The notes below the pieces were generated by a model, which saw only the letters and a list, made by a program, of their open reading frames with translations, was not told the DNA's origin and made no database searches. This document shows positions 1-9,730 of a DNA stretch of 64,000 nt, piece after piece. The stretch's first letter is position 1; each line of letters opens with the position of its first letter. A program made the translations under genes and the position numbers. The DNA is from Bombella pluederhausensis (GTDB lineage Bacteria > Pseudomonadota > Alphaproteobacteria > Acetobacterales > Acetobacteraceae), in assembly GCF_026385525.1 (NCBI RefSeq), contig NZ_JANIDY010000004.1:1-64000 (forward strand). Reading direction: 5' to 3'.

Positions 1-276
1 TAAGTCCGCTCTGGCTGGCCTGCTCAACCAGACTGGTACCGCCAAGCTGACAGACAGCTCTGTCGGTAATGTCATCAACAAGGCAGGCTTCACCCTCACC
101 AACAATGCCCTCAATGGAACGCTGGACAATGAGGGTACGGCTGACATTGAAGGCAGCAAGGTTACTGGTCTCACAACCAACAACAAGACGCTGACCGTCA
201 ATAAGTCCGCTCTGGCTGAGCTCGCCAACCAGGCTGGTACCGCCGAGCTGACAGACAGCTCTGTCGGTAACGTGAC
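1..276 (+). repeat. Direct repeat of about 75 bp, 201 bp apart, within the autotransporter passenger
   Basis: Bases 1-75 and 202-276 are near-identical (shared start TAAGTCCGCTCTGGCT, shared end CAGACAGCTCTGTCGGTAA). They encode the unit KSALAxLxNQxGTAxLTDSSVGNV twice, with a period of 67 codons. The first copy may extend further upstream outside the window. A second, more diverged level of repetition exists: residues coded at about 360-640 resemble those at about 1215-1490. Confidence 0.75.
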
Positions 277-3200
277 CAACACTCATGGCGCTTCTCTGAC
301 AGCCACACGTGACGCACTGGCATCTGCTACCAACAACGGCACCATGACACTGAGCAACAGCACAGTCTCCGGTGATGTTACCCAGAAGGATGGCGGCCTG
401 ACGCTGGATAACAGCACGATCCAGAAAACGCTTACTGCTAATGGTGGCCTGTTCACTATTACTGGCAACAGTTCCAAGGTCGGCTCGCTGGCCGGAACTG
501 CAAATGGTACGCTGAACAGCACGCTGACCTTGACCAATGCCAAGGACAGCTATGCCGGTTCCATGTCTGGTACGGGCGGTCTGACCCTCTCTGATGGACA
601 GGCAACCCTGACAGGCGCCAATAGCTACACAGGCACGACAACACTCGATAACGGCGTTCTGGCTCTGGCCCAGAAGGGCAGCATCGATCAGTCTGCTCTG
701 GTGGATATCAAGGATGGTGCCCGGTTCGACATCAGCGGGACTGATACTGGCGCCTCCGTGAAGGATATCGGTGGCACAGGCGATATCACACTCGGCAACC
801 AGACCCTGACCCTAACAGACGCCAAACCTGACACTGTCTATGCCGGTGTCATCTCTGGTGCGGGTGGCCTGACGGTGGCTGGTGGCCATGAGACCCTAAC
901 AGGCAATAACAGCTTCAACGGCGATACCACCATTACCGCACCGGCTGCCCTGACGCTCAACGGTTCTCTGGCCGGTGCCCTGAACAATGCCGGGACAACC
1001 GATATTGAAGGCGGGCATGTTGCTGGTCTCACCACCAACAGCGGCACACTGACCGCTACAGGTGGCACACTGGCTGCCATCATAAACAAGGCAGGCACAG
1101 CTGAACTCACGAACAGCACGGCAACAGATATCAGCAATGAGGCCGGGGCAACCTTTACCGCCACGGGTGGTACGCTTGCCTCCGCCACCAACAGCGGCAC
1201 CATGACGCTGGGACGTGGCAATATCGTCACTGGTAACGTCACGCAGAATGACGGCAGCCTGACACTTGATGGCAATCAGGTAGACGGCACGCTGGCTGCT
1301 AATGGTGGCACCTTCAACGTGACCGATGCAGGTTCTGTCGTGAAGTCCCTCTCTGGTAACGCTGATGGCAAACTAGGCGGGACGCTGAACCTGACCAATG
1401 CCGCTGATACCTATAATGGGTCCCTCTCCGGCAATGGCAGCCTGACGCTTTCCAACGGTCATGAAGTTCTGACGAACCAGTCCGCTCTGGGGGGAGCCGT
1501 AAATGTCGATAACGGTACGCTGGAGGTCACAGGACCGCTCGCAGAACTGACAACTGGCAAGGGACTGAAAATTGGCGCTACGGGTGCAGGTACTCTGACA
1601 CTCGCCAATGGTGCTGATCTTCAGAGCTCCGGGCCGATTGTCTTTGCCAAGGCCTCCCCTGCTACTGGCAATGGCTTCAATGCCACGCTGAACGTACTGG
1701 ATGGCGGTACGCTGGTGGCTGGCGATGCCAACGGTCAGGCTGGCCTGAATGCAGAAGAAGGCTCAAAGGCACGTCTGGTCCTGAATGGTGGTACGCTCCA
1801 GAACCGTCAGGGCTCTGATCTGACAAGCAACCTGAACACCAGCATCGGCTCTCAAGGTGCCGTGTTTGATGTGCAGGATCAGAACAAAATGACACTGGGC
1901 AGCGGCTCCACACTGGCCGATGCGTCTGACGATGCCGATCAGCTTTCAAACCATCTGGGCGACAGCAACACGCTGACCAAGACCGGCACTGGTACCTTCT
2001 TCTTTGAAGGAAACGGCTCTGACTTCACAGGCCCAACTGACATTGAGGCCGGTGAGATGGTTGTCGAAGGTGACCTGTCCCATTCCGCCATGGCTGTGCG
2101 GCAGAACGCCACGCTGGCCGGGACTGGCACAGTCGGCACGACAGCAGTGGATTCCGGCGCTACACTGGCACCGGGCCATTATGAAGCTAACAACCTTGGT
2201 ACGCTCCATGTCGCTGGCGACCTGACCATGGCCAAGGGCTCCGTGCTCCGCATCCGTGGTACGAGCGCTACGACAGGTCAGCAGCTTCAGGAGACCAGCG
2301 GCTTCAACTATAACGCGCTGACCTCCGACCATGTTGCTGTCAGCGGTAAGGCAACCATTCAGGGCGGTACTCTGGACCTGCATGTGCAGAATGCCGGTGC
2401 TGGCCTGACCTATGGCGAAGCCTACCGTGTCCTGACGGCTACTGACGGTGTCACCGGGCATTATGATGCGCTGAACACCAATCTGGCCGCAGAATATGCC
2501 TATCTCGACCCGGCACTCGCCTATACCGGCAATGATGTCGATATCGTCCTGCGCCGCAGCATCCAGGGCTTTGGCTCTGTGGGTGGCACACGCAACCAGA
2601 TCACCACCGGCAACGGGCTTGATCACATCTCCCAGAATGACGCTCTGGCAGATGCCATGGTGCAGCTGACACGCACACAGGCCAAACAGGCTCTGGATAA
2701 CCTGTCTGGCGAGCTACATGCCTCCATCCGCACGGCCCTGATTCAGGACAGCTTCTACATGCGGAATGCAGTCCTGAACCGTCTGGCCAATGTGGATTGT
2801 GACTATGGCCGCAACGGGCAGAGTGTCTATGACCTGAAGACCCATGAGAAGAACGGTGCCTGCTACTCCGACCACGCTACCATGTGGGGCCAGGCCTATG
2901 GCGGGCTGGGCCATAATAGCGGGGATGGCAATGCTGCCCTGATGCATCACAACACGGCAGGCTTCATCATGGGGGCGGATGCGCCTGTCCGTGGCAGCAA
3001 CTGGCGTGTGGGTGGTATGCTCTCCTACGGGCATTCCCAGTTCAATGTTGCACGGGGCCGGTCTTCCTCCGGTAACAGCAACAATATCACCGTTGGTGGT
3101 TATGCTGGGACGCACTGGGGTCGCCTGAACCTGCGCCTTGGTGCAGCCTATAGCTGGAACGTCATCAACACCCGCCGTCATATTGCCGTTGGCGAATATG

Positions 3201-3709
3201 GCGGGCGTGTCAGCAGCAGCTATCTGGGTGGTACAGCCCAGAGCTTCGCAGAGCTTGGCTATAAGCTGCATGGCGCAAACAGCGTGTTCGAACCGTTCAT
3301 GAACGTGGCTTACGTCAATATGCAGACAAACAGCTATCGTGAGCATGGCAACTCCGCAGCGCTGCACAGCCGTGGGACAGATAGTGGCGTGACCTTCTCC
3401 ACCTTCGGGTTCCGGGCCTCCACAAAGGTCAGTATCGGGAAGATGGTCTTCATGCCGCATATTATGGGCGCTTACCGTCATGGTTTCGGCCAGCTCGGCT
3501 CCCATATGCATGAAGCCTTTGTCTCGACAGGCAACAGCAGCGACATGGATGTGGGCGGTGTTCTGCTCTCCAGCAATGCTGCCATTATTGATACAGGTCT
3601 GACAGCCAAGCTGACCGACCGGATCGATCTGGACCTGTCCTACATCGGCCAGTACGGCAACCAGTCCACCGAAAGCGGCGCAACCGGCTCCTTCAGGATG
3701 CAGTTCTGA
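2..3709 (+). CDS. Autotransporter (type V secretion), 5'-truncated by window edge
   Basis: The frame is open from base 2, so the true start and signal peptide lie upstream of the window. The visible 1235 residues are a long Gly/Asn/Thr/Ser-rich passenger of parallel beta-helix type, with recurring units such as GTLTATGG, GSLTLDG and TLTGANSYTG. An outer-membrane barrel of roughly the last 280 residues follows (WGQAYGG, then alternating beta strands, ending in the C-terminal Phe of SFRMQF). The passenger would be exported through the barrel to the cell surface, probably as an adhesin or biofilm factor; that role is inferred from the family. Only two Cys lie in the junction region near the barrel. 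A strong terminator follows directly. The repeats suggest growth by internal duplication. Confidence 0.9.
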   Translation, partial: KSALAGLLNQTGTAKLTDSSVGNVINKAGFTLTNNALNGTLDNEGTADIEGSKVTGLTTNNKTLTVNKSALAELANQAGTAELTDSSVGNVTNTHGASLTATRDALASATNNGTMTLSNSTVSGDVTQKDGGLTLDNSTIQKTLTANGGLFTITGNSSKVGSLAGTANGTLNSTLTLTNAKDSYAGSMSGTGGLTLSDGQATLTGANSYTGTTTLDNGVLALAQKGSIDQSALVDIKDGARFDISGTDTGASVKDIGGTGDITLGNQTLTLTDAKPDTVYAGVISGAGGLTVAGGHETLTGNNSFNGDTTITAPAALTLNGSLAGALNNAGTTDIEGGHVAGLTTNSGTLTATGGTLAAIINKAGTAELTNSTATDISNEAGATFTATGGTLASATNSGTMTLGRGNIVTGNVTQNDGSLTLDGNQVDGTLAANGGTFNVTDAGSVVKSLSGNADGKLGGTLNLTNAADTYNGSLSGNGSLTLSNGHEVLTNQSALGGAVNVDNGTLEVTGPLAELTTGKGLKIGATGAGTLTLANGADLQSSGPIVFAKASPATGNGFNATLNVLDGGTLVAGDANGQAGLNAEEGSKARLVLNGGTLQNRQGSDLTSNLNTSIGSQGAVFDVQDQNKMTLGSGSTLADASDDADQLSNHLGDSNTLTKTGTGTFFFEGNGSDFTGPTDIEAGEMVVEGDLSHSAMAVRQNATLAGTGTVGTTAVDSGATLAPGHYEANNLGTLHVAGDLTMAKGSVLRIRGTSATTGQQLQETSGFNYNALTSDHVAVSGKATIQGGTLDLHVQNAGAGLTYGEAYRVLTATDGVTGHYDALNTNLAAEYAYLDPALAYTGNDVDIVLRRSIQGFGSVGGTRNQITTGNGLDHISQNDALADAMVQLTRTQAKQALDNLSGELHASIRTALIQDSFYMRNAVLNRLANVDCDYGRNGQSVYDLKTHEKNGACYSDHATMWGQAYGGLGHNSGDGNAALMHHNTAGFIMGADAPVRGSNWRVGGMLSYGHSQFNVARGRSSSGNSNNITVGGYAGTHWGRLNLRLGAAYSWNVINTRRHIAVGEYGGRVSSSYLGGTAQSFAELGYKLHGANSVFEPFMNVAYVNMQTNSYREHGNSAALHSRGTDSGVTFSTFGFRASTKVSIGKMVFMPHIMGAYRHGFGQLGSHMHEAFVSTGNSSDMDVGGVLLSSNAAIIDTGLTAKLTDRIDLDLSYIGQYGNQSTESGATGSFRMQF

Positions 3710-3899: not shown

Positions 3900-4217
3900 T
3901 TAGAACAGACGCCCCAGCAGATCAGCGACATCACGAATACCTGCACTGATATGCCCGGCAACATCATGCGTCAGGGCCTCAAGGAACCCAGCTCCCTTCT
4001 GGAGAGCACTATCAAGCCCCTTCTTAACGGGTCTTGGCAGGGGCGTGCCATGCTCCGCCATATCAGCCTGGGCCCCAGCCAAGTTCTGCGCCATTGTGTG
4101 GCCTCCCCCTGAGTTCAACAGGCCACCCAACAAAGTAGCGCCAAGGGCAGATACAGCTTCCAGCAGCAGACAGCCACCAGATACTTGATTCAATTCATGC
4201 TCATTAAGAGTTCTCAT
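3900..4217 (-). CDS. Microcin/bacteriocin-like peptide with double-glycine leader (copy 1)
   Basis: A protein of 105 residues. The first 15, MRTLNEHELNQVSGG, match the pattern of colicin V-type (class II microcin) leaders MRxLxxxELxxVSGG, which C39-peptidase ABC exporters cleave after Gly-Gly. The predicted mature part is 90 residues. It begins with Cys, has a hydrophobic/Gly stretch (ALGATLLGGLLNSGGG), a central PLPRPVKKG turn and amphipathic C-terminal segments ending DVADLLGRLF. I chose this ATG over an in-frame start 14 codons upstream because GGAG sits 7 nt before it and the leader begins there. Its leader and upstream region match those of the gene at 6257-6592. No exporter or immunity gene is adjacent. 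The mature part is not recognised, so toxicity is not shown. Confidence 0.72.
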   Translation of the reverse strand: MRTLNEHELNQVSGGCLLLEAVSALGATLLGGLLNSGGGHTMAQNLAGAQADMAEHGTPLPRPVKKGLDSALQKGAGFLEALTHDVAGHISAGIRDVADLLGRLF

Positions 4218-4336
4218 AACGAGTCTCCAAGAGATTTTCTGATGAATAAGAGAATCCACAACGAACCCTCAAGAGAATAAGGCATAATAATCGTGGTAAC
4301 CGTCAATATATTTTAGGTGAAAATACTATTAATTTT
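4218..4336 (-). promoter_or_regulatory. Conserved 5' leader/promoter region of microcin-like gene copy 1
   Basis: Read on the minus strand, this has AAAATTAAT at 4336-4328, an AT-rich stretch with TAAAAT, TTGAC at 4306-4302, a TTCTTG/TTCTCTTA-like block, then TGGAGACT and the ATG. The same elements occur at nearly the same distances upstream of copy 2: TTGAC begins 89 nt before the ATG here and 90 nt there. This indicates shared regulation by duplication. I cannot assign the exact -10 and -35 boxes. Confidence 0.6.
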
Positions 4337-4573
4337 GTTAGCTGTCTGATTCTATTTTTAGATAAACATGAAAATATATTTTTACAACTCTTTTATTTTA
4401 TTGATTTTTTATACATCCATTTATAACCATCTCCTCATTTTCCACCAATGAAACATTCTTCGATTAAAAGAGCGTTTCATCCTCCCTCTGCTTAATTTTC
4501 ACTAAATAAATGGGACCTAGCCTTAGTTCTTCTTCCTCCGTAGCCTTCAGGGTAACTTCCAAAACGGAACCGT
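4260..4573. other. AT-rich divergent intergenic region
   Basis: This lies between the minus-strand microcin-like gene and the plus-strand Hint gene and is far more AT-rich than the rest of the window. It should hold both promoters. The only internal reading frame noted is a 27-codon hydrophobic one at 4368-4451 without a ribosome-binding site. I see no RNA gene. Confidence 0.6.
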
Positions 4574-6145
4574 ATGATTATCCCATTCGGGCAGACTGTT
4601 AACTGGTTTCCCCAATCCAGACAGGCCATCATTCAGGCCACACTTTTCATGCCGGATAATCTGCCATCTTTTTCTGGAGACAATTCTTTCAATCTTCAGG
4701 GCGGCACGCTGGTCATTTCTCCAGCCTCATGGCAGGGGCTGGTCAGCCCGGCTGCACTGGCTACCCCCCATACCCTAACCATAAACCCCGGTAAGGGCGG
4801 GACGCTTCTTGTTGATTATGAAGGGCTGAGCAGTACCGTCCTGCCAACAAATCTATCCCTTACCCTTCATCTAACCGTAACGCCGCCCCCCAGTTTCAAA
4901 ATCAAACTTGCCTTTTCTACACAAAGCAACAGTTCAACAGCCGCACGGCAACGCTACGATGCACAGTATAACCAGACAACGATCCAGCTGAATGAAGATT
5001 ATAGCGTCTCCAGCACGGCCCATACGACCATCCTCATTCCCGGCAATCCCTATCATCTCCCTTTGGACGGAAACTGGTGCGCCATCAGCCTTTCTGATGC
5101 TGGCTCGGCAAAATCATCAGCACCGGAACTTGTCTGCTATCTGCCAGGCACACTGATAGATACCCCCAATGGCCCGATGAAGGTGGAGGAGTTACGGCCC
5201 GGTGATGCTATCCATAGTTTTCAGAATCATCAGAAACGAGTCGAACATCTCCGCTGGGTTGGCTACAAATCCGTCACAGCAGCGTCACCTGATGACTGGC
5301 CCATCCGCATCAAGCCCCACACATTCGGAAAAAACTGCCCATTCCAAGACCTGTACATCACAGAAGAACACTGCCTGTATCTAAAAGGCGCTTTTATCCC
5401 TGCCCGAATGCTAGTCAATCACAGTACAATCACCCGGGAAGAACGGACATGTTTCGACATCCATCATGTCGAAACCTATGAACACCGTATTATCAGTGCC
5501 AATGGTGTCCTCTCCGAGACCTACCTGAATACAGGTAACCGGGGCAGCTTCATCACACCAGATACAGGCACGATTATTCACTCTGGCCCAGCCTTCCCCG
5601 ACAGAATCAAAGACTGGCACCATGATGCTGCGGCCCCCCTACGGGTGGACCGCACATTCGTAGAACCGATACATACCGCCCTGACACGGCGAGCAGAAAA
5701 GCTCGGTGTGCCCGCAGACACCCCCAATCACCATCTGACAGATGATCCGGCCCTCAGGCTACTTGATCCTCAAGGCTCAGAGCTCCCTCTCCTTCGGAAA
5801 GACGGGTCTCATTACCTTTTTCAAATGCAAGGCGCCGTTCCTTTTCTGTCCATTACATCACGCACGGCCCGCCCCAGTGAGAGCATCGGCCCCTTCGTGG
5901 ATGACAGGCGCCTGCTGGGTGTGCTGGTAGGCAGCATCATCCTCATCCATCCTGAAGGACAGCAACAGCCATTAACCTCCCATCTCACAGCGCCATCCAA
6001 CACAGGCTGGGATGTCATGGAGGCCAGCCCCTGCCGCTGGACCAACGGACAGGCTCACTTGCCTCTACCGAACATCACCATGCCAGAGGGTTCCCTGTTG
6101 GAAATCGAAGTCCTTAGTGCTGGCCCTTACATCCTACCCCAATAA
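4574..6145 (+). CDS. Hint (Hint_2) domain-containing protein
   Basis: A protein of 523 residues with no obvious signal peptide. Residues 1-180 are a beta-rich segment rich in Thr, Ser and Pro. The Hint domain begins at Cys188 (CYLPGTLIDTPNGPMKVEEL, then RPGD) and includes the late motif YEHRIISANGVLSETYL. The C-terminal part carries the DGSHYLF, TSRTARPSESIGPFVDDRR and LGVLVG motifs that usually follow Hint_2 in acetic acid bacteria. Hint folds self-cleave or splice through the first Cys; here no obvious intein C-extein junction is seen, so autocleavage or a structural role is more likely than splicing. It lies between the two microcin-like genes on the opposite strand. The role is unknown. 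Confidence 0.82.
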   Translation: MIIPFGQTVNWFPQSRQAIIQATLFMPDNLPSFSGDNSFNLQGGTLVISPASWQGLVSPAALATPHTLTINPGKGGTLLVDYEGLSSTVLPTNLSLTLHLTVTPPPSFKIKLAFSTQSNSSTAARQRYDAQYNQTTIQLNEDYSVSSTAHTTILIPGNPYHLPLDGNWCAISLSDAGSAKSSAPELVCYLPGTLIDTPNGPMKVEELRPGDAIHSFQNHQKRVEHLRWVGYKSVTAASPDDWPIRIKPHTFGKNCPFQDLYITEEHCLYLKGAFIPARMLVNHSTITREERTCFDIHHVETYEHRIISANGVLSETYLNTGNRGSFITPDTGTIIHSGPAFPDRIKDWHHDAAAPLRVDRTFVEPIHTALTRRAEKLGVPADTPNHHLTDDPALRLLDPQGSELPLLRKDGSHYLFQMQGAVPFLSITSRTARPSESIGPFVDDRRLLGVLVGSIILIHPEGQQQPLTSHLTAPSNTGWDVMEASPCRWTNGQAHLPLPNITMPEGSLLEIEVLSAGPYILPQ

Positions 6146-6156
6146 TAAGAGCCAAC

Positions 6157-6190
6157 AGAAAAGGGGATGGCCCATACGGACCATCCCCCC
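6157..6190 (-). terminator. Terminator, mainly for the minus-strand microcin-like gene 2
   Basis: An 8-bp stem GGGGATGG/CCATCCCC (6163-6170 and 6181-6188) is followed on the minus strand by four T. It lies between the convergent ends of the Hint gene and the microcin-like gene and may stop transcription from both sides. Confidence 0.65.
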
Positions 6191-6256
6191 AAAGAGAGCC
6201 TGCCCTAGCTGGACAGAAACCCTACCATGCACCCCTTATCGGGCCAGCAAGGTTTA

Positions 6257-6592
6257 TCAGATCAGACGTGTGACGAAATTCACAGCCTGCTGGATGCCTG
6301 CACCAACGAGGGAGACAAGGCTACCAAGCGGGTTCTGCAGGAAGCCAGAAATTGCCTGCAGAGGAGCAGACAGAAGGCCCATCACGCCACCACCGAGGGC
6401 AGGTGCGGCTACAGCTGCAGCGTAACCGTTCGGAACATAGTTGGCTGCCGGAATCGTGTTGGTGTTAGCAGCAGGAGCCAGAACGTTCTGACCACCACCA
6501 AGAGCACCGCCCAACAGACCGCCGAGCAGGTTGCCCAGCAGACCAAAACCACCAGAAACGCTATCCAGCTCACGGGTGCTAAGAGCTCTCAT
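6257..6592 (-). CDS. Microcin/bacteriocin-like peptide with double-glycine leader (copy 2)
   Basis: A protein of 111 residues. Residues 1-15, MRALSTRELDSVSGG, are a colicin V-type double-glycine leader; the last six residues before the cut, DSVSGG, are the same as in the colicin V leader as I recall it. The predicted mature part is 96 residues. It starts with a Gly/Leu repeat (FGLLGNLLGGLLGGALGGG), then an Ala/Asn/Pro-rich linker and a hydrophobic GVMGLLSAPLQAISGF region, ending AVNFVTRLI. An in-frame start 31 codons upstream exists, but GGAG 7 nt before this ATG and the leader decide the start. Low charge and high Gly resemble pore-forming class II microcins; that activity is inference. The mature part is not alignable by eye with copy 1. 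Confidence 0.74.
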   Translation of the reverse strand: MRALSTRELDSVSGGFGLLGNLLGGLLGGALGGGQNVLAPAANTNTIPAANYVPNGYAAAVAAPALGGGVMGLLSAPLQAISGFLQNPLGSLVSLVGAGIQQAVNFVTRLI

Positions 6593-6714
6593 CTTAAGTC
6601 TCCACACAATTTTTATTAAGAGAACGGAAGTTTTACATGGAACTTCCAAGAACAAAAAGTCACAATAAAAAACTGGAGTCAACAAAAAATATTATAGATA
6701 CTGAAATTAATTTT
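6593..6714 (-). promoter_or_regulatory. Conserved 5' leader/promoter region of microcin-like gene copy 2
   Basis: Minus-strand order: AAAATTAAT (6714-6706), TATAAT, TTGAC (6682-6678), TTCTTGGAAGTTCC, TTCTCTTA, TGGAGACT, ATG. It matches the copy 1 leader in order and spacing, including the ribosome-binding site and the first two codons (ATGAGA). Confidence 0.6.
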
Positions 6715-7073: not shown

Positions 7074-7149
7074 GTCCCGTTCGTCTAGAGGCCTAGGACA
7101 CCGCCCTTTCACGGCGGCAACACGGGTTCGAATCCCGTACGGGACGCCA
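7074..7149 (+). tRNA. tRNA-Glu (anticodon TTC)
   Basis: Full cloverleaf: acceptor GTCCCGT/ACGGGAC, anticodon stem CCGCC/GGCGG with loop CTTTCAC (anticodon TTC at 7108-7110), T-arm ACGGG-TTCGAAT-CCCGT, discriminator G and encoded CCA. It borders the AT-richer accessory segment, a typical integration position. I found no second copy of its 3' end downstream to mark an attachment site. Confidence 0.97.
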
Positions 7150-7623
7150 CAGCATCTACCGTATCTTTTGCGGGATGCAGCGAATTGGAAGCGATACCTA
7201 ATTTACCAAATTGTTGGTTTGAGTCATTCCTGAGCCAATCAGGAGAGCATAGCTCTTTGATATCAGAAGGCTTTGCATGAGCAAACCGGAAAGATCAGAC
7301 ATCAATGCTGCCACAACTAAACCGCTCCCTAAAAGGATTTAATACCGCGGCCCCGGCCCGTATCAAACCAGCAGAACGATCAACGACGACCGCCTGAATG
7401 AAGACATTTGCATCGTCAGCTCTGACTCGCCGCTGGTCCACTGAAAAACGTGCGAGACAGACAGCATTTCGAACATAATGGTTTGTCAAAACACTGAAGC
7501 TCATATGTCAGCCATGGGTCAATCGACCCTGAAGCAATTTACCTACGGTAAACTCACGTTTCCCCACTACCGCCGAAACTGGGCTACCGAGGCAGAGTGC
7601 CCTGGTAGCCCTGGCCTCTACCA
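7150..7623. other. Intergenic stretch between tRNA-Glu and the restriction-type gene
   Basis: No gene is supported. A minus-strand frame at 7295-7504 is open for 69 codons but has no recognisable motif. Bases 7582-7610 form a hairpin (GGCTACC/GGTAGCC with an inner GGCA/TGCC) just after the stop of the minus-strand gene, with no clear T run; it may act as its terminator. The composition suggests eroded foreign sequence. Confidence 0.45.
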
Positions 7624-9366
7624 TCAGGCGAGCATATTTTTAAATGCGTTGGTAAGTAGCTTCTCTCGTTGCTCGATAAATTCACGAAAGTTAGCAAAGG
7701 AGAGATCTATATCAGGAATATAGTGCTTTGCCCTGTAGTCCCTACGGTCTGCCTCCAAAGGATACTTGTTAGCTAGCCACGTATCGAAATCTTTATCCGA
7801 CTTTTCCTGGTTTGGTATACCTTCGAGTAATTGCAAATTCGCTAGACTGTTGAACTTCGCCATGAAGAAATCAATCTCGTCATCCTTGATACCCGCTTCT
7901 AACAGCCGTTTCTTGGTAAACATCTTTTTCGGGAAAATGTGATCCTGATGAAACTTGTTACGAAAATCGAGTGTCGGGTAGAGGAAAGCCAATACGGAAT
8001 AGGTGGGCGTCTCATTGTAGCCGTAGCGCAGAAGTCTCGCAATCTCGTCTTCGTCAAAGGCCAAAGATTTCGAGGTGCCTTTCAACTTGCTTACAATCTC
8101 CTCAAACGGGAAACCTTGGTCAGTGCCACGAATGACCTCACGGATAGGGCGAAGCACATTATCAGGCTGGCCGCCGAATGTTCCCTTTAACAGGACGATC
8201 ACCAGCCACTTGAATATCGCCTTGCGGTCAGCCTCATATTTCGAAGCAATATCGAAATCTTTAGGAGAGCCAATCTTCTGCAGGTAATAAGCGATAGGGA
8301 TCAACGCATTGTTTGATTTCAATGTCGCACCGCTATAACCGAAATTAGCTAATAGAATAACCGTACTGCGGATGGCTTTAGTGATATCTTCCCATTGCCG
8401 CTCAATATGGAGCATATTGGCCTTATTGAAATTTTTCACCTTAAAAGCAATGTCACGAAAATCGGCTAGGACAAGGCAACACTTCAATACGAAGTCCTTA
8501 TTGATGTTAAAACCATCGCAGATACCGTTGACCTCGTCGACGAATTGCGTGATCTCCTCGCGCGCATCCTTGTCCTTCCACTGTGCCGTGGCAATGGACA
8601 ATAGCAGGTCAGAAGAATTGAGCTTTGTACCTCCGCTATTCACGCGGATGAAGATATTGAGAACTTTGTCCAAATCTTCACCACGCTCTAGAAAGAAATT
8701 AATTGATTTACTTTTGTGAATAACGTCATGCAGTTTGAACAGGGCCTTATTAGCCAGCCGGAAGTTATCTTTTCCGAATTGTGCTGCATCATTGTTCAAA
8801 AGGTAATCATTAACATCGACAGGCTCGACGATATCGAGAATATCACCAACCTTGAACCAAAAGTTTTTGTCATCTCGAACGCCAGCCTCCTTCTGTGTCA
8901 GGAAACTGAACTCATATTCGACATCACTATCTTCTACAGACCCATAAAAAAGGTTCAGATAAAGATATCGTTTGGAGAAAACGGCATCGTTGTTCCGGCG
9001 CTTTTTCAGTACGTTCTGAGCATACGAGCCCTTAAGTCCGATATACAGGGAAGTAAGCCGCTGTTGGCCATCAAGAATGGCAATGATGCCAGCACTCCCA
9101 CTCAGATTAGCCTTAGGGTTATGATAATTATCGCGTTCGTGATAATCACGGATAAACTCGTAAAACTGATATTTGTCGACGTTCTCGCTTTCGACTTCCC
9201 AGAACAGAAACGAGCTGATCGGATAATCCCGCATAAGGGAATCAAAGAGTTTTCCAATCTGACCGGGGGCCCAGACAAATTCACGCTGTATGGCAGGGAG
9301 CAAGTAGTTCTTGCGATCTATCCTTTCAATAGCGTCCTTGATCGTAATTGGTTCAATAAATGCCAT
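7624..9366 (-). CDS. DUF262-DUF1524 protein, GmrSD-like putative restriction nuclease
   Basis: A protein of 580 residues. The N-terminal DUF262 (GmrS-like, ParB/Srx fold) shows QREFVW at 27-32 and ILDGQQRLTS at 97-106. FIRVNSGGTKLNSSDLLLS at 239-257 is the usual downstream block. The C-terminal DUF1524-like HNH region has DHIFP at 475-479 and NSLANLQLL with later Asn519. Such fusions (GmrSD, BrxU, SspE) act as NTP-stimulated nucleases against modified phage DNA, or in phosphorothioation-linked defence. The start follows AGGAGG at ideal spacing; a frame 12 codons longer lacks one. Codon use is more AT-rich than its neighbours, and the gene stands alone beside tRNA-Glu, suggesting transfer. Which modification it senses cannot be told. 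Confidence 0.8.
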   Translation of the reverse strand: MAFIEPITIKDAIERIDRKNYLLPAIQREFVWAPGQIGKLFDSLMRDYPISSFLFWEVESENVDKYQFYEFIRDYHERDNYHNPKANLSGSAGIIAILDGQQRLTSLYIGLKGSYAQNVLKKRRNNDAVFSKRYLYLNLFYGSVEDSDVEYEFSFLTQKEAGVRDDKNFWFKVGDILDIVEPVDVNDYLLNNDAAQFGKDNFRLANKALFKLHDVIHKSKSINFFLERGEDLDKVLNIFIRVNSGGTKLNSSDLLLSIATAQWKDKDAREEITQFVDEVNGICDGFNINKDFVLKCCLVLADFRDIAFKVKNFNKANMLHIERQWEDITKAIRSTVILLANFGYSGATLKSNNALIPIAYYLQKIGSPKDFDIASKYEADRKAIFKWLVIVLLKGTFGGQPDNVLRPIREVIRGTDQGFPFEEIVSKLKGTSKSLAFDEDEIARLLRYGYNETPTYSVLAFLYPTLDFRNKFHQDHIFPKKMFTKKRLLEAGIKDDEIDFFMAKFNSLANLQLLEGIPNQEKSDKDFDTWLANKYPLEADRRDYRAKHYIPDIDLSFANFREFIEQREKLLTNAFKNMLA

Positions 9367-9730
9367 TAATTCCTCCTGTGATGTCCTCATATTGGACAGC
9401 ATTCAATATTGCCTTATTTATGGAAAAATACAATTTACGAATCACCGAATTTCAGCTCAGTCTAGAAAAGACAACTAAATGGAGTACTCTCACTGTATTT
9501 CTGAATTTCCAGTTTCGGTCTTCCCGTTCTCAAAATGGACATTCGGCTTACCCCCGTAACGGACTAAGATCTCCGCAGCGAGTTTCTGGTATGCCACACT
9601 ACTTCAGATAACTGATATTGTCAGAAGTAGATTCAAAGGGTGAGAAACAGCAGGATGAGAGCCATACACAAAACGCTATAAGCCTGCAGGACAGTATTCA
9701 TTCCGGCCGATGCACAACTCGGCCCAAGCA
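9367..9730. other. Upstream flank of the restriction-type gene, no gene
   Basis: AT-rich at first, then of normal composition. It must contain the minus-strand promoter of the DUF262 gene. I see no conserved reading frame, RNA gene or clear repeat. Confidence 0.4.

Follow-up and report, generated by a model that had tools for sequence, protein, structure and literature searches.

A probable secretion module for class II microcin-like peptides, with an unusual Hint-domain partner, in the acetic acid bacterium Bombella pluederhausensis

Two minus-strand genes of Bombella pluederhausensis, lying on either side of an oppositely oriented Hint-domain gene, encode precursors with 15-residue double-glycine leaders, and the genome carries, on another contig, a C39-peptidase exporter with which such genes co-occur in the genus. 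Taken together, these genes are best explained as a module for secreting class II microcin-like (colicin V type) peptides, unusual in having a Hint partner, and we consider this reading likely. In the proposed mechanism, the leaders would be recognized by the C39 domain of the type I ABC exporter, encoded adjacent to its HlyD and TolC partners, which would cut after Gly-Gly and pass the 90- and 96-residue peptides across both membranes. The mature peptides would then most likely act on the membranes of competing bacteria, with the Hint protein (HintA) as a putative accessory, self-processing protein in the same module. Of these steps, the most strongly supported is that the C39 system cleaves and exports the peptides in trans, which is highly probable. 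Positions given without a contig or locus label refer to the window, that is, the whole 64,000-nucleotide stretch that was analysed (C9:1-64000 of the 2.0 Mb genome).

Peptide genes and their relationship

Peptide 1 is encoded as a 105-aa precursor at 3900..4217 (minus strand, ATG at 4217), with its leader MRTLNEHELNQVSGG at 4173..4217 and a mature part of 90 aa at 3903-4172. Peptide 2 is encoded as a 111-aa precursor at 6257..6592 (minus strand, ATG at 6592), with its leader MRALSTRELDSVSGG at 6548..6592 and a mature part of 96 aa at 6260-6547. A GGAGA ribosome-binding site precedes each start by about 8 nt, and coordinates, starts and leader pattern agree with the earlier note, which had claimed two minus-strand genes whose 15-residue double-glycine leaders precede mature parts of these lengths. 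The leader of peptide 1 was assigned from its sequence and the recognition rule for LahT, which requires leader positions −4, −7 and −12 to be hydrophobic (PMC6363468), and that of peptide 2 from its sequence and the leader pattern; V(−4), L(−7) and L(−12) are present in both. Searched as a DNA pattern, the leader gave three matches in the 2.0 Mb genome, these being peptide 1, peptide 2 and an exporter-linked peptide, and the reversed control pattern gave none in the same genome. When 0.8 Mb sampled from related genomes was scanned with a looser regular expression, no credible leader emerged.

Pfam MccV (PF17508) matches peptide 1 with E 0.0015 and 19.5 bits, below the gathering cut-off of 27 bits, and gives no match to peptide 2. 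TIGR01847 finds peptide 1 above the model's cut-off, and TIGR03949 scores the two peptides at 18.2 and 18.4 bits, just under its curated cut-off of 21.5 bits, the alignment being confined to the leader and the first mature residues. Support from curated profiles for the two predicted peptides is weak, and profile searches with the mature parts matched no known bacteriocin family. Both mature parts are Gly/Ala/Leu-rich, carry a small net charge (−2 and +1) and share one layout, in which a variable linker joins a hydrophobic Gly-rich N-terminal segment to a conserved amphipathic helix at the C-terminus (hydrophobic moments of 0.59 and 0.51). The AlphaFold model of peptide 2 (pLDDT 50), consisting of a helix, a disordered linker and two helices, is interpretable only as helical segments.

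The mature parts had been described as unalike by eye, which holds only in part and gives way at the C-terminus, where the last 34 residues align gap-free (LQxxxGFL...AGI...RL), and upstream, where the 5′ regions are homologous. In ungapped shuffling tests, the C-terminal similarity was reached in 11 of 1000 shuffles when unanchored and in 0 of 20000 when anchored at the C-terminus, an anchor chosen post hoc; since hhalign of the peptide 1 profile against the peptide 2 profile aligns the leader alone, the C-terminal likeness rests on these tests. The 5′ regions are alignable throughout and share a TTGAC box (4301..4306 for peptide 1 and, as TTGACT, 6677..6682 for peptide 2, both on the minus strand), an inverted repeat and a GGAGACT ribosome-binding region. 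The inverted repeat, which for peptide 2 lies at 6626..6647 (minus strand) in what is presumably the 5′ UTR, keeps its position 30-59 nt ahead of the start codon in nine of the ten peptide 1 and peptide 2 genes, its pairing being preserved by compensatory changes (three pairs changed on both sides), and is degenerate at peptide 1 of B. pluederhausensis. Several further peptide genes in the genus are preceded by similarly placed hairpins, some of which are no better than chance. Given the common 5′ region with its covarying hairpin and the similar C-terminal helix, peptides 1 and 2 look like diverged duplicates.

The C39 exporter and its co-occurrence with the peptides

No C39-peptidase exporter is encoded within the 64-kb window, as the earlier note had observed, and its proposal to search the whole genome for such a transporter and a membrane fusion partner yielded both, together with a TolC-type channel. 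Pfam Peptidase_C39 identifies a single domain in the genome, in a 727-aa ABC transporter (C8:97700-99880) at an exporter locus (L002) on a contig other than that of the peptide island. The gene for the HlyD-type adaptor (L002 8295-9704; HlyD_3 above cut-off, TIGR01843 with E 1e-40 and under that model's cut-off) lies directly upstream of the transporter gene and overlaps it, the gene for the TolC-type channel (L002 6752-8173; TIGR01844 above cut-off) is divergent, and the third double-glycine peptide gene follows the transporter gene. Aligned with LahT150 (6mpz, E 1.3e-31), the C39 domain keeps the motifs ECG, NHFVV and INDP, with the Cys/His/Asp catalytic triad and the Gln intact. In every exporter-bearing Bombella genome examined, multicopper oxidase-like and CopB-like genes (L002 13542-16225) lie between the exporter and a further Hint gene, HintB.

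The island was followed through Bombella intestini (G170), B. favorum (G211), B. mellum (G296), B. apis (G299), Acetobacteraceae bacterium B3987 (G118) and a metagenome bin (G301), all of the same genus. Peptide 1 is kept in three further species (77% identity) and peptide 2 in five (62-74% identity). The dN/dS ratio is about 0.05-0.2 for mature peptide 1, calculated only where dS is estimable and unsaturated, and 0.15-0.51 for mature peptide 2, values that place the mature parts under purifying selection as judged from these alignments. Conservation of the neighbourhood, which the earlier note had put forward as a check, was borne out: the genes for the autotransporter, peptide 1, HintA and peptide 2 form a syntenic block in B. 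favorum, B. intestini and strain B3987, and B. mellum and B. apis have the same block minus peptide 1, with peptide 2 and HintA kept. The autotransporter gene (272..3709, plus strand; Pfam Autotransporter and PATR) is syntenic in all HintA-bearing genomes and is here probably cut off by the contig start. On the other side of the island, tRNA-Glu-like (by eye) and DUF262-like genes lie at 7079-9402, before an alpha/beta-hydrolase gene; the DUF262-like gene was not seen at that place in relatives, and the stretch is a possible separate insertion. At the island's site, G032 and G300 carry LysR-like and pyruvate decarboxylase-like genes (L157, L159 vs L061, L271), which suggests that the site is variable.

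Among 11 Bombella genomes, exporter and double-glycine peptides occur together in seven and are both missing in four, G243 and G300 among them (Fisher p 0.003, a statistic that ignores kinship), a co-occurrence that rests on few independent events. Every peptide-bearing Bombella genome has a C39 exporter, the absence of which the earlier note had named as grounds for abandoning its reading. The metagenome bin has the exporter with different double-glycine peptides and no island. Exporter and peptide pair are both present in strain B3987; a peptide gene next to its exporter was looked for and none was found, so that the island pair there relies on an exporter encoded elsewhere. G032 has lost the exporter locus by deletion (L163, G032:C21:88000-107500): the HlyD, C39 and peptide genes are gone, the last 27 codons of TolC remain as a remnant, and HintB is in pieces with an in-frame stop, further Hint genes of this genome being likewise broken (L164). 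As G032 is weakly placed in the species tree (support 60), the number of independent losses is uncertain.

In a family sample of 299 genomes, a C39 domain above cut-off is present in 98, comprising 12 of the 12 genomes with a credible leader and 86 of the remaining 287 (Fisher p 1e-6, or 5e-5 with two doubtful leaders retained, kinship being ignored in both). Leader matches in G263 (in-frame stop) and in G102 (Arg before GG, no C39 gene) were set aside as not credible, and leader-like DNA matches such as those at G000:C1:562423 and G211:C1:383820, considered as candidate further peptides, were unsupported by the peptide scan (L161, L162). In G126, the C39 exporter gene carries an in-frame TAG (L277, G126:C1:1448131) and is probably decaying.

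The Hint protein between the peptides

HintA (523 aa; 4574..6145, plus strand) lies between the two peptides in the opposite orientation, as the earlier note had it, and consists of a variable N-terminal part, a Hint_2 domain (5132..5533, plus strand) and a conserved C-terminal domain. The match to Pfam PF13403 (Hint_2) has E 1e-31 and 110.7 bits against a cut-off of 28.4. HintA keeps the motifs for predicted autoprocessing, namely Cys188 and TxxH (T263-H266), and C188, T263 and H266 are invariant across the eight Hint proteins compared. With its N-terminal Cys and TxxH, the Hint_2 domain resembles bacterial intein-like domains (6tmm, 2lwy), which are also the best PDB matches of the HintA model; the model is of low confidence (pLDDT 53), and the fold search appears informative for the Hint part only. 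A scan of genome contigs with HintA gave no match. The Hint domain of polymorphic toxins is followed by a toxin at the C-terminus; HintA differs from these in its variable N-terminal part, in the conserved domain that follows Hint and in being paired with double-glycine peptides.

The B. pluederhausensis genome holds seven Hint_2 genes (3.5 per Mb), so the proximity of HintA to the peptides might by itself be chance. HintA accompanies peptide 2 in six of six genomes, and a Hint gene lies near both Bombella peptide loci, HintA adjacent to the pair and HintB about 4 kb off. Outside Bombella, six loci have a Hint gene less than 1 kb from a double-glycine peptide, where the expected number is about 0.3 for a density of 3.5 Hint genes per Mb and 1.2 for one of 15 per Mb, as computed over about 20 peptide loci; the density found in sampled windows of other-genus genomes was two Hint genes in 0.8 Mb. 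Six adjacencies in about 20 loci are very unlikely to have arisen by chance. The arrangements comprise a Hint gene immediately upstream of three tandem peptides (G013), the order adaptor, C39 exporter, peptide, Hint (G250), a Hint gene divergent from the exporter-adjoining peptide (G169, G040, G295) and one peptide bracketed by two Hint genes (G153), and at 72 exporter loci outside Acetobacteraceae no Hint gene was found. The co-occurrence that the earlier note had asked for is thus seen both in Bombella and in other genera. In the peptide-linked Hint proteins the N-terminal parts are unalike, the Hint Cys is invariant, the C-terminal domain is conserved and most of the proteins have TxxH. As they are scattered in a FastTree phylogeny with no single clade, and as many peptide loci have no Hint gene, the link is recurrent and not obligatory.

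A functional part of HintA in the module is, on these grounds, an evenly balanced proposition. The alternative, that the Hint gene is an unrelated neighbour and the system consists of peptides and exporter only, is possible and somewhat improbable: the seven Hint_2 genes of the genome, the persistence of other Hint paralogues in exporter-less Bombella genomes and the lack of a clade speak for it, and it has to account for the adjacencies outside the genus, the Hint genes near both Bombella loci, the constant company of HintA and peptide 2, and the broken HintB of exporter-less G032, a point qualified by the other broken Hint genes of that genome. We tentatively put forward, at a little below even chance, a three-part module in acetic acid bacteria, undescribed so far, in which double-glycine peptides and a C39 type I exporter would be joined by a Hint protein, variable in its N-terminal part, whose self-processing would belong to peptide maturation, display or delivery; if this is true, a microcin-like system would have a Hint protein as a functional partner. 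A full-text literature search for 'Hint domain' together with Acetobacteraceae returned no paper.

Class assignment and alternatives

The Bombella system resembles that of colicin V in its C39 ABC exporter, HlyD-type adaptor and TolC channel. The leader of CvaC, the precursor exported as MccV through CvaB-CvaA-TolC, is MRTLTLNELDSVSGG, of the same type and 15-residue length as those of peptides 1 and 2, and the mature size is likewise near 90 aa. Unlike colicin V, however, the Bombella peptides occur in Acetobacteraceae rather than Enterobacterales, are unlinked to their exporter, have mature parts non-homologous to MccV and sit in an island with a Hint gene between them and no adjacent immunity gene. 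A class II microcin system is taken here as the five components listed in PMC9746304, four of which are present, namely a double-glycine precursor, a C39 ABC transporter, a membrane fusion protein and a TolC channel. For the fifth, no conserved immunity candidate (a small membrane protein, or a small ORF lying outside the frames of the peptides and Hint) was found beside either peptide in six species, in line with the remark in the earlier note that the window shows no immunity gene; an immunity gene at a distance is possible. The peptides are therefore not filed as microcins. The broader reading of the earlier note, a microcin or secreted-peptide system, stands as regards leaders, exporter and co-occurrence; a bacteriocin function is not supported by any conserved immunity gene. 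Antibacterial action, by analogy the default expectation for such an architecture, is uncertain and could fall either way, the missing adjacent immunity gene, the mature parts without a bacteriocin family and the low net charge all telling against it.

A self-directed role, in which the C39-exported peptides would serve the producer through self-lysis, surface coating or aggregation, or signalling instead of killing competitors, appears unlikely. It would fit the lack of an immunity gene, the wide variation of mature parts between loci and genera, and the gonococcal Nap peptides, which are bacteriocin-like, carry double-glycine leaders and promote autolysis with no detectable antimicrobial activity (PMC11798529); the class II microcin-like size and leader speak against it, and a non-systematic look at the immediate neighbours of the genes showed no pheromone-type regulator or fibre-assembly gene. 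Like the Bombella island, the Neisseria nap island is accessory and holds several double-glycine peptides predicted to be processed by a C39 peptidase, but the Nap peptides are cationic and 16-36 aa long, their island has napP and FapF-like secretion genes at its flanks, napI is similar to an immunity gene and no Hint gene is listed (PMC11798529). Matches to the lactobin/cerein model raise the further reading of peptides 1 and 2 as the obligate partners of a two-peptide bacteriocin of class IIb type, with both peptides near the TIGR03949 cut-off, in one island, under a common 5′ control region and with a similar C-terminal helix. Lactobin A and cerein 7B do share the double-glycine leader and the Gly-rich hydrophobic mature start, but the Bombella mature peptides are longer, the TIGR03949 match is limited to the leader and first mature residues, and the shared C-terminus suggests duplication and not complementary partners. 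Moreover, peptide 1 is missing in B. mellum and B. apis, which keep peptide 2 and HintA, so that an obligate two-peptide bacteriocin is highly improbable; of the 'pair' in the earlier note, two genes in one island remain. That the ORFs are chance matches to the leader motif, as the weak curated-model matches might suggest, can be given a negligible probability in view of the empty control pattern, purifying selection and synteny in up to six species, and co-occurrence with the exporter.

The verified class II microcins belong to Enterobacterales (PMC9746304, PMC10233263). BAGEL4 found no bacteriocins in 22 Bombella genomes (Harer et al. 2022, PMC9147383), and a bacteriocin exporter gene (COG2274) is present in all Commensalibacter genomes studied (PMC10149009). 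Most species of the bee-associated Bombella carry a complete export system and several peptide precursors, and the peptides, if active, could influence competition in bee guts and hives. The recurrent Hint pairing raises the question of what task a self-cleaving protein has in peptide secretion.

Double-glycine peptides elsewhere in the sample include tandem series with Gly-rich mature parts, four in G246 (L283 12310-13963) and three in G013 (L067 9235-10388), which suggest diversification. A very His-rich mature part, HHHHHGGEQSGGEHHHHHH, was seen in strain B3987 (G118, L064 9548-9709) and a His/Asn-rich one in G122 (L073 9776-10045), both possible metal-binding secreted peptides.
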